Shown here: in pieces, positions 29,065 through 35,338 of the stretch
Layout of the letters: each line of letters starts with the position of its first letter
Numbering within the stretch: position 1 is the first letter of the stretch
Assembly: GCA_902530715.1 (NCBI GenBank)
Contig: CACABD010000004.1
Coordinates: 1-41,706, forward strand
DNA from: an uncultured Pelagibacteraceae bacterium
GTDB taxonomy: Bacteria > Pseudomonadota > Alphaproteobacteria > Pelagibacterales > Pelagibacteraceae
DNA length: 41,706 bases
Direction of reading: 5' to 3'
Position numbers and translations under genes: made by a program
The notes under the pieces: model-generated
Seen by the model: the letters and a program-made list of their open reading frames with translations, nothing else
The model's database searches: none
Told to the model about the DNA's origin: nothing

Positions 29065-29358
29065 ATGAAATTTAAACCTTTGCATGATAGAGTTCTTATC
29101 GAAGTGCTTGATAGCAGTGAAAAAACTGCTGGAGGAATAATTATACCTGACTCAGCTCAAGAGAAACCTCAAGAGGGAAAAGTAGTTGCTGTTGGTGGTG
29201 GTTCTAAAACTGAAGATGGCAAAATTATACCAATGGATGTAAAAGTCGGAGACAAAGTTTTATTTGGTAAGTGGTCTGGAACTGAAGTGAAAATAGATGG
29301 AAAAGAATACAGCATAATGAAAGAGTCTGACATTATGGGTATTTCAACATCAAAATAA
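29065..29358 (+). CDS. groES: Co-chaperonin GroES
   Basis: [57 protein letters not shown]. Confidence 0.99.
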
Positions 29359-29375: not shown

Positions 29376-31126
<1,751 letters not shown>

Positions 31127-31142
31127 GTTTTAAAAAGTTTTG

Positions 31143-31460
31143 TTATTTTTGTTTTGGGAAAATCAAGTAAATTTGAAACAATTGTCCAACTATAGGAATT
31201 AAAATAATAAGAAAAAACAATCTTTTCATCCCAATAGAGTTAATTCTTTGTATAGAATTAAATATTGAAATAACAATAGTAATCAAAAGGTACAAAGGTA
31301 AAAACTGATTGAGTTGAAAGTTTTGTATTTGTCCGCCAATAATTACAAAAACGAATAAACTTATTATAAGTGTTAGTTGAACACAAAAGTAATCCAATCT
31401 TCCTGCTTTATCCTTTAAATTAAATAAATTTTTTATTCTATAAATTATACATTTAGTCAT
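31143..31460 (-). CDS. DUF805-like membrane protein
   Basis: N-terminal GRLDYF, IQRINSIGMKRLFFLIILIPIVGQLFQIYLIFP (DUF805-type RL-x-DIG...LIP-GWI pattern). Confidence 0.65.
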   Translation of the reverse strand: MTKCIIYRIKNLFNLKDKAGRLDYFCVQLTLIISLFVFVIIGGQIQNFQLNQFLPLYLLITIVISIFNSIQRINSIGMKRLFFLIILIPIVGQLFQIYLIFPKQK

Positions 31461-31472
31461 GATGATATTCCC

Positions 31473-31802
31473 TTATAATGTCAGCACCATATAAATCAAC
31501 CATAACTGGTTTAAGACTGCTACACCCATAAGTATTTTCACTAAAATACCCCAATTAAAACCTGGTAAATTTTTTTCTTTTTTGTTTAAACTGTAATTAG
31601 TTGCGCTGTTCCAAGTTCCAATAACAGTTGCTAGTAGATACAATGCTTGAAGAATAATAATAATTAAACCGGCATTATTATCTGGATAAGCGATATTTTC
31701 TTTAGGTAATAAATCAATTACTATTTTCAACGCTACGTTTGTTCCAAAATATATGAACCAAAATGAAAATGCTAAAGATAATTCTCCTCTAAAAAATCTC
31801 AT
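31473..31802 (-). CDS. Hypothetical membrane protein (three to four TM)
   Basis: 109-aa ORF between co-oriented genes with short spacers; hydrophobic segments. Confidence 0.65.
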   Translation of the reverse strand: MRFFRGELSLAFSFWFIYFGTNVALKIVIDLLPKENIAYPDNNAGLIIIILQALYLLATVIGTWNSATNYSLNKKEKNLPGFNWGILVKILMGVAVLNQLWLIYMVLTL

Positions 31803-31832
31803 AAAGTAAAATTAACACAATATTCAATAAAG

Positions 31833-32516
31833 TCATCTTCTAAGTATAACCGCTCTAAGTAAAAACCAAACATTTCTTAAGTTTAATATACTTGTTAGCG
31901 ATCCTATTACATATGTAAAGGCACAAACTCTTAAAATAGATTTACATGATGAATGATATTCAACTGGAATTTTCTTTTCTAATATTGGCATTGCCCTTTT
32001 AAAACTAGCATCTAATTCAACATCTAAAGTAATTAGGTGTGAAATCATTGTGATTAATATTGATGCAAAAATTATTAATACACAAACTCTTATAAAAGGA
32101 AGTGCCCCAGTCGCTAGGATTGCGGGGATACCAGCATATAGTAATAAACTTGATATTTTATTTAACCATGCTGTTTTTGAAATAATTTTTTGCCTTCTCA
32201 TAAGAGGTGGATAATTTTCCTTATCCTGAATTGCATGACCTATTTCATGGCACATGACCGTGATACTTGTAATACTTTTTTTATCTAGTCTATCTGGTTT
32301 AACTCTTACAGTTTTTGAGTTTGGATCATAATGATCTCCAATTTTAGTATCTTCAATTTTAACATTTTCTAAATCTTGTTCCTTTAACAAATTCAAACCA
32401 AATTCTTTTGCCGTAAAAGGCATATTTGGAAGGATATCGTCGTGTTTATTTAATGTATAATTTACCCACAATCCTGGTACGACATAAATAAAAATTCCAA
32501 AAAGATAAAAAATCAT
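31833..32516 (-). CDS. Neutral zinc metallopeptidase, YugP/Zn_peptidase_2-like
   Basis: DHYDPNSKTVRVKPDRLDKKSITSITVMCHEIGHAIQDKENY (HExxH), TM helices, LDVELDASFKRA. Confidence 0.87.
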   Translation of the reverse strand: MIFYLFGIFIYVVPGLWVNYTLNKHDDILPNMPFTAKEFGLNLLKEQDLENVKIEDTKIGDHYDPNSKTVRVKPDRLDKKSITSITVMCHEIGHAIQDKENYPPLMRRQKIISKTAWLNKISSLLLYAGIPAILATGALPFIRVCVLIIFASILITMISHLITLDVELDASFKRAMPILEKKIPVEYHSSCKSILRVCAFTYVIGSLTSILNLRNVWFLLRAVILRR

Positions 32517-32541
32517 ATTATAATTTTACCCCACCTCCCTC

Positions 32542-32573
32542 AATGAAGTCATCTTTTAACTTGCTTTTAAATT
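32542..32573. repeat. Leader repeat copy A, 5' of the zinc peptidase gene
   Basis: AATGAAGTCATCTTTTAACTTGCTTTTAAATT; 29/32 identical to 34238..34269, exact for the first 16 nt. Confidence 0.88.
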
Positions 32574-32584
32574 AGAGGGTTTTC

Positions 32585-32608
32585 TCAATGAAGTTTTCAA
32601 TGAAGTTC
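32585..32608. repeat. 12-nt tandem repeat x2
   Basis: TCAATGAAGTTT|TCAATGAAGTTC. Confidence 0.85.
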
Positions 32609-32639
32609 TTTAATAAGTAAGTATTAGCGTACTAAAAAT

Positions 32640-32659
32640 GCGAATGTAGGCGAATGTAA
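32640..32659. repeat. 10-nt tandem repeat x2
   Basis: GCGAATGTAG|GCGAATGTAA. Confidence 0.85.
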
Positions 32660-32686
32660 TCCCCATTAATCTCAAACAAAAAATTC

Positions 32687-32718
32687 AAAAAGGGCAGTTT
32701 TTACTGCCCTTTTTTTTT
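32687..32718. terminator. Symmetric, probably bidirectional terminator T2
   Basis: AAAAAGGGCAGT-TTTT-ACTGCCCTTTTTTTTT; perfect inverted repeat with A tract on one side and T tract on the other. Confidence 0.88.
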
Positions 32719-32739
32719 ATTTATCCGAAAATCGGTGGT

Positions 32740-32781
32740 GATGAATATAGTGATGAATGTATGATGAATGTATGATGAAGG
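32740..32781. repeat. 11-nt degenerate tandem repeat, about 3.7 copies
   Basis: GATGAATATAGT|GATGAATGTAT|GATGAATGTAT|GATGAAGG. Confidence 0.85.
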
Positions 32782-32792
32782 ATTTAGTTTTT

Positions 32793-33521
32793 TTAAATAA
32801 GCGTCAGAGACGCTTTAAACAAATTTGTATTAGTAGGGTCTTTTGAAATCATTTTTTTTTCAGGTGTTGGAAAAAAGAAAATATTATAGTACCAACCAGG
32901 ATAGTCTAAACCATTTTTTTTATCATCTATTTTAGATTTTTTTCTTATTTTTAGATCTTTATTAAATACAACTTCTAAAAGTTTTTTATCCCAAATATAT
33001 TTATTATTTAGATTAACCAAGTTAATAAATGAATATTTTTCGTTATTTTTAAATCTATTTTTTAAAATATTTAAAAGAATTTTTGGTAGTTCCTTTATTT
33101 TTTTTTTATCAAGTTTTTTGAATATTTTTATAGGTTCAGGTTCATCCCAACTATGTCCATCCCCATGATAAAAAGAACTTGTAATCAAAAAACTGATGTT
33201 ACTTTTTTTACTACTTAAATACCCAAACTCTTGTTTTCTAATCCAAACTCCTTCTGGATTATTATCAATAGTTTGAATTAAAGGTATATATTCAAATAAT
33301 TTACTTAAACTATTAAAACTTTTTTTTGGATTTTCGAAATGACTATAGTTTGGATTTACCCAATCTCTTCCTTCAGTTAAGTTTTCATAACCATCATAAC
33401 CAAATCCTCTTGATAAAGCATAATCAAAAAGCATATGTGGTCTCGAAATTATGTATTCAGGTAAATTTGATTTTGAAAACACTTGGAAGAAAATTTCAAT
33501 GTTGAATTTTGGTTTTTTCAT
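32793..33521 (-). CDS. Hypothetical protein, no recognised family
   Basis: 242-aa ORF, SD-range spacing (9 nt) behind the upstream ORF; W/Y-rich motifs DYPGWYYNIFFFPTPE, YHGDGHSWDEPEP. Confidence 0.75.
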   Translation of the reverse strand: MKKPKFNIEIFFQVFSKSNLPEYIISRPHMLFDYALSRGFGYDGYENLTEGRDWVNPNYSHFENPKKSFNSLSKLFEYIPLIQTIDNNPEGVWIRKQEFGYLSSKKSNISFLITSSFYHGDGHSWDEPEPIKIFKKLDKKKIKELPKILLNILKNRFKNNEKYSFINLVNLNNKYIWDKKLLEVVFNKDLKIRKKSKIDDKKNGLDYPGWYYNIFFFPTPEKKMISKDPTNTNLFKASLTLI

Positions 33522-33530
33522 TATCTAAAT

Positions 33531-34220
33531 TTAATCTTTTATCAATTTTTTAAATTCTATTCCAATTTTGTCAGTTTTATATAGTTGATTAATCACTAAT
33601 TGAGCAAATCCTACCACTTCTCTTTTATCAAACTTAATTGTTGTTTTTTTCGAATTATCTTCAACAAATTTAAGTAATCTTTTGGGATCTAATAAATTTT
33701 CAAGAGTGAGCAACCAATCTTTTCTGTTTCTTTTAAAATCTTTAAGTTTCAATTCATCAATAAAATCATCACCTGTTTTACTAGGTTTTTTATTTGCTTT
33801 AATATTTGTGGAAATCCCTCTCAAGCAATAAGATTTAATTCTTTCAATAAACTCTTTGTTAAAACGCTTTTCTTTTTTTAAAACTATTGCTTTATGATTG
33901 TGTAAATTTGATAGTTCATCTATCTCCCAAACACTATAATTTACTCTGCTAGAAGTAGATTTAATTAGTTCATCAAGATATTTAAGCGACTCATCAATTT
34001 TTCCAATTTCTTGAAGATATTTTGCTTTTCTAACTAAATCTTGAAGAGTGAGTAATTTATCAAAATCAGTATATTCCTCATCTTCTTCCATTTCATATGA
34101 CGGAGGTTCATAAATTCCATTTTTATATGCCTCATCTAAAACCTTTATTGCTTCCTCAACTTTATTCTCTTTTTTAAGTTTGGTTGCTTTTTTAAGAAGA
34201 TCACTTACTTTCATACTCAA
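33531..34220 (-). CDS. Hypothetical TPR-like helical protein
   Basis: Two helical repeats DLLKKATKLKKENKVEEAIKVLDEAYKNG / DLVRKAKYLQEIGKIDESLKYLDELIKS; ATG at 34214 is an alternative start. Confidence 0.75.
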   Translation of the reverse strand: MSMKVSDLLKKATKLKKENKVEEAIKVLDEAYKNGIYEPPSYEMEEDEEYTDFDKLLTLQDLVRKAKYLQEIGKIDESLKYLDELIKSTSSRVNYSVWEIDELSNLHNHKAIVLKKEKRFNKEFIERIKSYCLRGISTNIKANKKPSKTGDDFIDELKLKDFKRNRKDWLLTLENLLDPKRLLKFVEDNSKKTTIKFDKREVVGFAQLVINQLYKTDKIGIEFKKLIKD

Positions 34221-34237
34221 ACCTAACCCAACTCTAA

Positions 34238-34269
34238 AATGAAGTCATCTTTTGAATTGCTTTTGAATT
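34238..34269. repeat. Leader repeat copy B, 5' of the TPR-like gene
   Basis: AATGAAGTCATCTTTTGAATTGCTTTTGAATT; matches 32542..32573. Confidence 0.88.
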
Positions 34270-34347
34270 GCGTTTGAAAAGTGATGAATGATGATGAATG
34301 TATCTTCAATAAGTCAGTAAATAGTAGTATTTTTGAAACCAGTATGA

Positions 34348-34436
34348 GAATGTAATACGTTTCCACCTAAAGAACGGTCAAAAAACATACTAAACAAAAT
34401 TACAACCCCTGGAATGAAAGTTTCAGGGGTTTTTTT
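34348..34436 (+). repeat. Direct repeat copy 2: orphan groEL 3' end + terminator, no groEL CDS upstream
   Basis: GAATGTAATACGTTTCCA...CATACTAAACAAAATTACAACCCCTGGAATGAAAGTTTCAGGGGTTTTTTT. Confidence 0.93.
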
Positions 34437-34444: not shown

Positions 34445-35338
34445 TTAAATTTTTCGTCCGACTACTTTTAGTTGATCTCCATTTATTAAATCTAACAGAT
34501 TAAGAGAAAACTCAATTACACGTGTGAATATATTTTTGAATTCAAATTTAATTATATCTTTTAAAAATAAAAAAGGTAATTTAAAAAAATTTCGTATTAA
34601 TCTTCTATACTCTACAAAAGAAAAATCTTCTATCTCGACTATATCAAAACCTGCTTTATTAAGCATTATTTTTGTAGATTCTTTTGAAAAAAAATGAAGA
34701 TGAGATAATGGAACTACCATTGACCATTTTTCTTTTAGGATTTTAGATTTGAAAGACTCTGAATGCGGGAATGTTAAAAATATTTGACCATTTTTTTTCA
34801 TTTTTTTGTTTATTTTTTTTAAAGTTTGGATTGGATTTCCAACATGTTCTAATACATCAAATGCGGAAACAATATCGTTATTGTTTCTAATTTGATAAAA
34901 GTTTTTTTTAATTCCTTTTAATTTAACAAAAGATCTTGGTTCTAGTCCTTGGCAAGTCCATCCTTTTAATAAAAAAGTTTTGTAAAGTCTGCATAATCCT
35001 GGACCAATTTCAAAAAATTTACCTTTGTCAATATTCACATATTTAAAAATCCAATGATCATTTTGAGTCATAATGTTTTTGAAGCCGTACGTTATAAATT
35101 TTTTTTTTTGGTCTAATTCATAATCTGTTCCGCCAAAAACTAAAGGTGAGTCTGTTTTGTAAAGATTATTTAGCATAGTTTGACTTGGAAATTTTGAAAT
35201 AAATCTATGTAAACAATTTTGACATTTCATTAAATCAAACTTGCTGTTAATTTCTTTTAGATGATTTTTAATAGTCGCTAATTTTTTTATATTTCTGTTT
35301 TGACAAATTGGACATTTATTAATTTTTCTTAATTTCAT
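34445..35338 (-). CDS. Class I SAM-dependent methyltransferase with N-terminal Cys4 zinc-ribbon-like motif
   Basis: CPICQNRN...KCQNC; FFEIGPGLCRLYKTFLLKGW; SAFDVLEHVGNPIQTLKKI. Confidence 0.85.
   Translation of the reverse strand: MKLRKINKCPICQNRNIKKLATIKNHLKEINSKFDLMKCQNCLHRFISKFPSQTMLNNLYKTDSPLVFGGTDYELDQKKKFITYGFKNIMTQNDHWIFKYVNIDKGKFFEIGPGLCRLYKTFLLKGWTCQGLEPRSFVKLKGIKKNFYQIRNNNDIVSAFDVLEHVGNPIQTLKKINKKMKKNGQIFLTFPHSESFKSKILKEKWSMVVPLSHLHFFSKESTKIMLNKAGFDIVEIEDFSFVEYRRLIRNFFKLPFLFLKDIIKFEFKNIFTRVIEFSLNLLDLINGDQLKVVGRKI

Follow-up and report, generated by a model that had tools for sequence, protein, structure and literature searches.

Small gene cassettes of SAR11 bacteria that probably integrate site-specifically at the 3′ end of groEL

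Genomic islands are known at the 3′ ends of conserved genes such as tRNA genes and ssrA, and some staphylococcal islands insert at groEL. The tycheposons of streamlined aquatic bacteria are elements of 4–200 kb which are bordered by tRNA and carry a tyrosine recombinase (PMC10872708). For SAR11, exchange of the hypervariable region HVR2 via homologous recombination at rRNA genes has been proposed, and no attC was found in SAR11 hypervariable regions by Wilhelm et al. (PMC2217521); further, SAR11 was earlier reported to be without restriction-modification (R-M) systems (PMC9516812). Here, a 32-mer is described which very probably marks the right (distal) end of small gene cassettes integrating site-specifically at the 3′ end of the essential gene groEL in SAR11, presumably served by an integrase acting in trans.

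The 32-mer was noticed in an uncultured Pelagibacteraceae bacterium, in a stretch of 41,706 nt referred to here as the window. An initial annotation had reported two copies upstream of unrelated minus-strand genes, with weaker similarity extending outward, and had offered three guesses: an operator or promoter, a leader peptide, or a recombination arm for the addition of cassettes. Both copies are real (32542–32573 and 34238–34269); they fit the proposed consensus exactly, are identical at 29 of 32 positions, and lie 25 nt from the ATG of the Zn-peptidase gene (32516) and 17–23 nt from the start of the TPR-like gene (34220 or 34214), respectively. No further copies occur in the window or elsewhere in the genome, which is 52% complete; the two are on the plus strand, with 0.00 expected in shuffled sequence, and each contains CTTTTGAATTG twice, 11 bp apart. 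The outward similarity was also borne out: the homologous segment is about 118 bp long (32542–32659 and 34238–34355) and runs from the 32-mer to the octamer GAATGTAA, about 110 bp beyond each copy. The 32-mer and this core are common to both segments; the sequence between differs and defines classes A and B. What the annotation did not contain is that groESL lies immediately upstream of the array and that both segments have a duplicate of the groEL stop region at their end, followed by a groEL-type 3′UTR and a plus-strand terminator (32687–32714; 34404–34431). The window thus reads groEL, cassette 1 (31044–32659), cassette 2 (32660–34355), a displaced old 3′UTR and a flanking methyltransferase gene, with the following features:

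29065–29358, plus strand: groES (Pfam Cpn10, E 1e-38)
29382–31043, plus strand: groEL, whose 3′ end is the insertion target (Pfam Cpn60_TCP1, E 2e-82); it reads ...GGAATGGGAATGTAA
31036–31043, plus strand: core copy 1, GAATGTAA, the last codons and stop of groEL (from sequence)
31044–32659: cassette 1, 1616 bp, adjoining groEL, bounded by two GAATGTAA cores
31044–31123, plus strand: left end of cassette 1, groEL-type 3′UTR of the TACGTTTCC class, terminator at 31092–31123
31143–31460, minus strand: cargo of cassette 1, DUF805 membrane protein (Pfam PF05656, E 1.9e-8)
31473–31802, minus strand: cargo of cassette 1, 109-aa protein, family unknown, without Pfam or PHROG match
31833–32516, minus strand: cargo of cassette 1, Zn_peptidase_2 metallopeptidase (Pfam PF04298, E 6.4e-46)
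32542–32659, plus strand: right end of cassette 1, class A, with the 32-mer (32542–32573), a RATGAA pair (32587 and 32599) and core 2 (32652–32659)
32660–34355: cassette 2, 1696 bp, bounded by cores 2 and 3
32660–32785, plus strand: left end of cassette 2, groEL-type 3′UTR of the CCCC/GGGCAG class, terminator at 32687–32714; 93% identity to the native groEL 3′UTR of genome G297 (locus L072)
32740, 32752, 32763 and 32774, plus strand: four RATGAA repeats in the left end of cassette 2
32793–33521, minus strand: cargo of cassette 2, 242-aa protein, family unknown, without Pfam or PHROG match
33531–34220, minus strand: cargo of cassette 2, TPR/ARM-like protein of 229 aa (weak Pfam ARM_TT21 match, E 0.0037, under the curated cut-off)
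34238–34355, plus strand: right end of cassette 2, class B, with the 32-mer (34238–34269), a RATGAA pair (34283 and 34293) and core 3 (34348–34355)
34356–34431, plus strand: displaced older groEL 3′UTR beyond the array, terminator at 34404–34431; 85% identity to this genome's own groEL 3′UTR
34445–35338, minus strand: flanking SAM methyltransferase gene (Pfam Methyltransf_23)

No tRNA was found in the window. A plus-strand sRNA between the terminators was considered and rejected: the terminators are of the groEL type, and no Rfam structured RNA scored above its gathering threshold, the sub-threshold matches both lying over the terminators.

Comparison of relatives with empty and occupied sites gave clean insertions of 160–1862 bp at the octamer GAATGTAA; each alignment continues past the groEL stop, is interrupted, and is taken up again at this octamer. 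In G176 versus G168 (L016 versus L076) the alignment extends to position 64 and resumes at 1914 against 52, an insertion of 1862 bp beyond which 9.5 kb of flank align at 93%; G297 versus G168 (L072 versus L076) gave an insertion of 1479 bp, and G003 versus G162 (L100 versus L084) one of 160 bp, an end-to-end cassette without a detected gene. The window itself has such a counterpart: in the sister genome G093 (L037), whose GroEL is ~100% identical to that of the window genome, the methyltransferase flank directly follows the groEL 3′UTR, and the 3.3 kb with cassettes 1 and 2 are absent. At the boundaries examined, the short identical core was present at both ends of insertions in all classes, and displaced 3′UTRs match native groEL 3′UTRs of other genomes at up to 98%. 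The right ends of class C, the commonest class (31 loci), are 98–100% conserved from −80 to the core and about 50% right after it; the search pattern included the core itself but not the flanks farther out, which show the sharp junction. In class C cassettes the left and right ends match each other. A palindromic core was discarded because the inverted repeat surrounding it is weak. The empty/occupied pairs and the placement together demonstrate that insertion is precise, uses a single chromosomal site and leaves the gene end intact, and, as far as can be read from sequence, the junction pattern is the signature of site-specific recombination. The sequences show that insertion at GAATGTAA keeps the groEL coding sequence, brings in a new 3′UTR and terminator with the cassette, and displaces the previous 3′UTR outward. 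In L153/L042 (G299) a left arm is apparently fused straight to a right arm with no cargo between, that is, an empty cassette.

The arrangement is widespread. With up to 3 mismatches, the 32-mer was found in 8 of 297 genomes of the family, the window genome included; groEL is present on six of the other seven contigs, always with the 32-mer downstream of it (6/6), the seventh being a 4-kb contig without groEL. With related ends included, about 60 other SAR11 loci are known, among them an array of about six cassettes in G264. Displaced groEL-type 3′UTRs were seen in roughly a quarter of the about 86 genomes whose groEL-downstream DNA was compared. A scan of an 84,980-genome collection with the 18-bp core of classes B and C returned 54 loci, 51 from Pelagibacterales and three chance matches in other taxa. 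In about 44 of the 51, groEL precedes the copy on the same strand at a distance of 0.13–12.9 kb; six are on contigs without groEL and one is inverted. Nearly every placeable copy thus lies downstream of groEL on its strand, bar the inverted one. The latter (L171), a right end 1.6 kb from the groEL 3′ end and near a contig end, is possibly a chimera of single-cell amplification. The two refuting outcomes named by the initial annotation did not materialize: the element is present in many genomes, with groEL as the recurring neighbour, and a single segmental duplication does not fit the unrelated cargo between the copies.

Cassette ends carry RATGAA repeats spaced by 10–12 bp, like integrase arm sites. 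A pair spaced by 10 bp is present in 50 of 51 right ends, and repeats spaced by 11–12 bp were present after the groEL terminator in 9 of 23 cassette-bearing genomes versus 0 of 63 without a cassette (p = 1.8e-6, a value that overstates independence as the genomes are related). Direct-repeat arms at helical spacing flanking a core, a feature of lambda-type attP, are thus present at the sequence level; some left ends, that of cassette 1 of the window included, have no arm repeats. The RATGAA repeats are putative integrase arm sites, and the CTTTTGAATTG tandem in the 32-mer is possibly a site for an excisionase or a further arm site. L072 and L080 have another class of right end, in which ACATTGAATATCAATTATTCAATGT, a palindrome, and CAATGT motifs in place of CAATGAA are found about 130 bp ahead of the core.

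No integrase or recombinase was detected in the cassettes examined, nor any recombinase in about 86 groEL-downstream regions; a search of viral contigs (IMG/VR) with patterns for both cassette ends gave nothing relevant, and no relative was found in phage records. Because neither cassettes nor viral contigs yielded a recombinase, we infer a tyrosine integrase that acts in trans. Supplied by a phage or helper element, it would bind the core half-sites around GAATGTAA and the direct-repeat arms at both ends and link the circular form of a cassette to groEL; successive insertions would give an array in which the cassette beside groEL is the youngest, by this model cassette 1 in the window. A single native tyrosine recombinase of about 310–325 aa is found in most genomes of the genus and is still a conceivable cassette enzyme; the cassette-bearing G176, a draft genome, has no PF00589 match at all. 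Chromosome dimer resolution in SAR11 may rely on one Xer-like enzyme. Other lambda-type integrases of the genus lie near tRNAs where they can be placed, and none was found near groEL.

The cargo of the 51 loci comprises 142 ORFs in 80 families, accessory genes such as those for signal-peptide proteins, HNH nucleases and R-M systems. Viewed over at most 8 kb, at least 13 of the 51 loci carry R-M genes: type I systems (HsdM/HsdS/HsdR), a C5 methylase with HaeII, an AlwI-like enzyme with methylase, HindIII-like and CfrBI-like nucleases with N6/N4 methylases, and others. Not all SAR11 R-M genes are at groEL; across 89 genomes, the strong N6_Mtase matches include two at groEL (G288, G252), one at ssrA (G238) and two, at unplaced sites, next to a 110-aa protein (G232, G236), the rest being elsewhere. 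The cassettes thus often carry R-M genes which SAR11, the ocean's most abundant bacteria, was thought to lack; the right-end sequence can serve as a probe for new defence genes of SAR11, and with a defined site, recognisable ends and a cargo list, gene exchange and phage defence in SAR11 become searchable and testable.

The 110-aa protein (MQQLELFDFRRD...FTWNSD), conserved and functionally uncharacterized, is encoded next to the right end in 11 loci of class C (L152 628–960, L071 6537–6869, L064 and others), where its sequences share ~90% identity or more, and lies beside R-M cargo. It has no Pfam or PHROG match, and its predicted structure was uninformative (pLDDT 53); it could be a directionality or control factor. 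The protein recurs just downstream of ssrA (tmRNA) in G238 (L192 6009–7067), accompanied by an R-M-type gene pair, and in G297 (L193 6256–7315); the ssrA end there has similar repeats, ATTGAAGT/CAATGAAGT, and this element is likely a sister system at a second site. In G063 (L125 4961–9140) a distant homolog (35%) is located about 3 kb from a lambda-type integrase which adjoins the 3′ half of a tRNA-Met-like sequence, with a C5-type methylase in the same region; it is possible that this region is an autonomous relative of the cassettes.

Other explanations account for parts of these data. The repeated GAATGTAA might be the 8-bp target duplication of a target-specific transposon (Tn7-like or IS-like) at the groEL end, as one copy flanks each side of every insertion and non-autonomous transposons encode no recombinase either; however, the ends are not mutual inverted repeats by inspection (left TCCCCATT or TACGTTTCC, right ACCAGTATGA), no transposase was detected among the cargo scanned with Pfam, and the homology of the left ends to native groEL 3′UTR and terminator fits an integrase element with its att at a gene 3′ end instead, so that a transposon is improbable. 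That homologous recombination or a segmental duplication of the groEL flanks alone gave rise to the arrays is hardly credible, even though shared ends would allow RecA to shuffle cassettes between arrays: identity at the crossover is just 8–12 bp, the insertions are exact, the cargo is unrelated, and the same junction recurs beside many different 3′UTRs. Homologous recombination is thus contradicted as the origin of the insertions but could contribute to their spread.

The two regulatory guesses of the initial annotation fare little better, and a role of the 32-mer chiefly as shared promoter, operator or leader of minus-strand genes is very unlikely. Its position in the window, 17–26 nt ahead of the first cargo gene, and the orientation of 105 of the 142 cargo ORFs, which run away from the right end, would suit a promoter, and a secondary role of this kind is possible; but 37 ORFs face the opposite way (e.g., in L139, L149 and L152), the conservation extends to the groEL-like core, and an element placed at groEL before cargo without common function marks a cassette end rather than a regulon. 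The leader peptide was rejected: class C lacks the MTS.. mini-ORF, and its ATG in some cassettes of class A leads in frame into a cargo gene for a signal-peptide protein. Both readings are weak. The recombination arm, by comparison, is the best supported of the three guesses, given the placement at groEL, the empty and occupied sites, the sharp junction and the arm-like repeats.

The insertion hotspot and the cassette family are real and general, and apparently undescribed; no account of the groEL site was found in the literature searched, subscription papers and preprints lying outside its scope, and priority is therefore uncertain. With islands at gene 3′ ends the cassettes share the conserved target with its gene end preserved, the duplicated att, a 3′ flank that comes from the element, direct repeats resembling arms and sequential stacking; they differ in being small (often 1–3 genes), in lacking a detectable integrase and in forming arrays of unrelated cargoes. 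Tycheposons likewise combine a gene-3′-end target in streamlined aquatic bacteria with diverse cargo, whereas the SAR11 cassettes are at groEL, mostly measure 0.16–7.4 kb, have no recombinase found and, in the window, no tRNA. The terminal inverted repeats and transposase of Tn7-like transposons were not seen. Defence cargo of phage satellites and hotspots also consists of R-M modules on mobile elements at a fixed core-gene site, but no phage-related or packaging genes were found in the SAR11 cargo scanned. Like integron cassettes, those of SAR11 form arrays of short units with one recombination site each beside a fixed platform; in contrast, no IntI was found beside the arrays (about 86 groEL-downstream regions), the crossover is the groEL stop region with 3′UTR and arms, the cargo often faces the platform, and the junction, judged by its sequence, is GAATGTAA in all classes and not the attC R″ box (GTTRRRY). 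A broader reading is tentative and rather doubtful, namely that SAR11 has an integron-like system at the groEL 3′ end, in which a recombinase not encoded by the cassettes captures and stacks circles of one or few genes, many with R-M genes, and so provides these streamlined cells with defences that can be exchanged, a sister system being located at ssrA. By the features tested, the cassette family is neither integron nor tycheposon; it behaves as an integrative element of gene 3′ ends with integron-like stacking.
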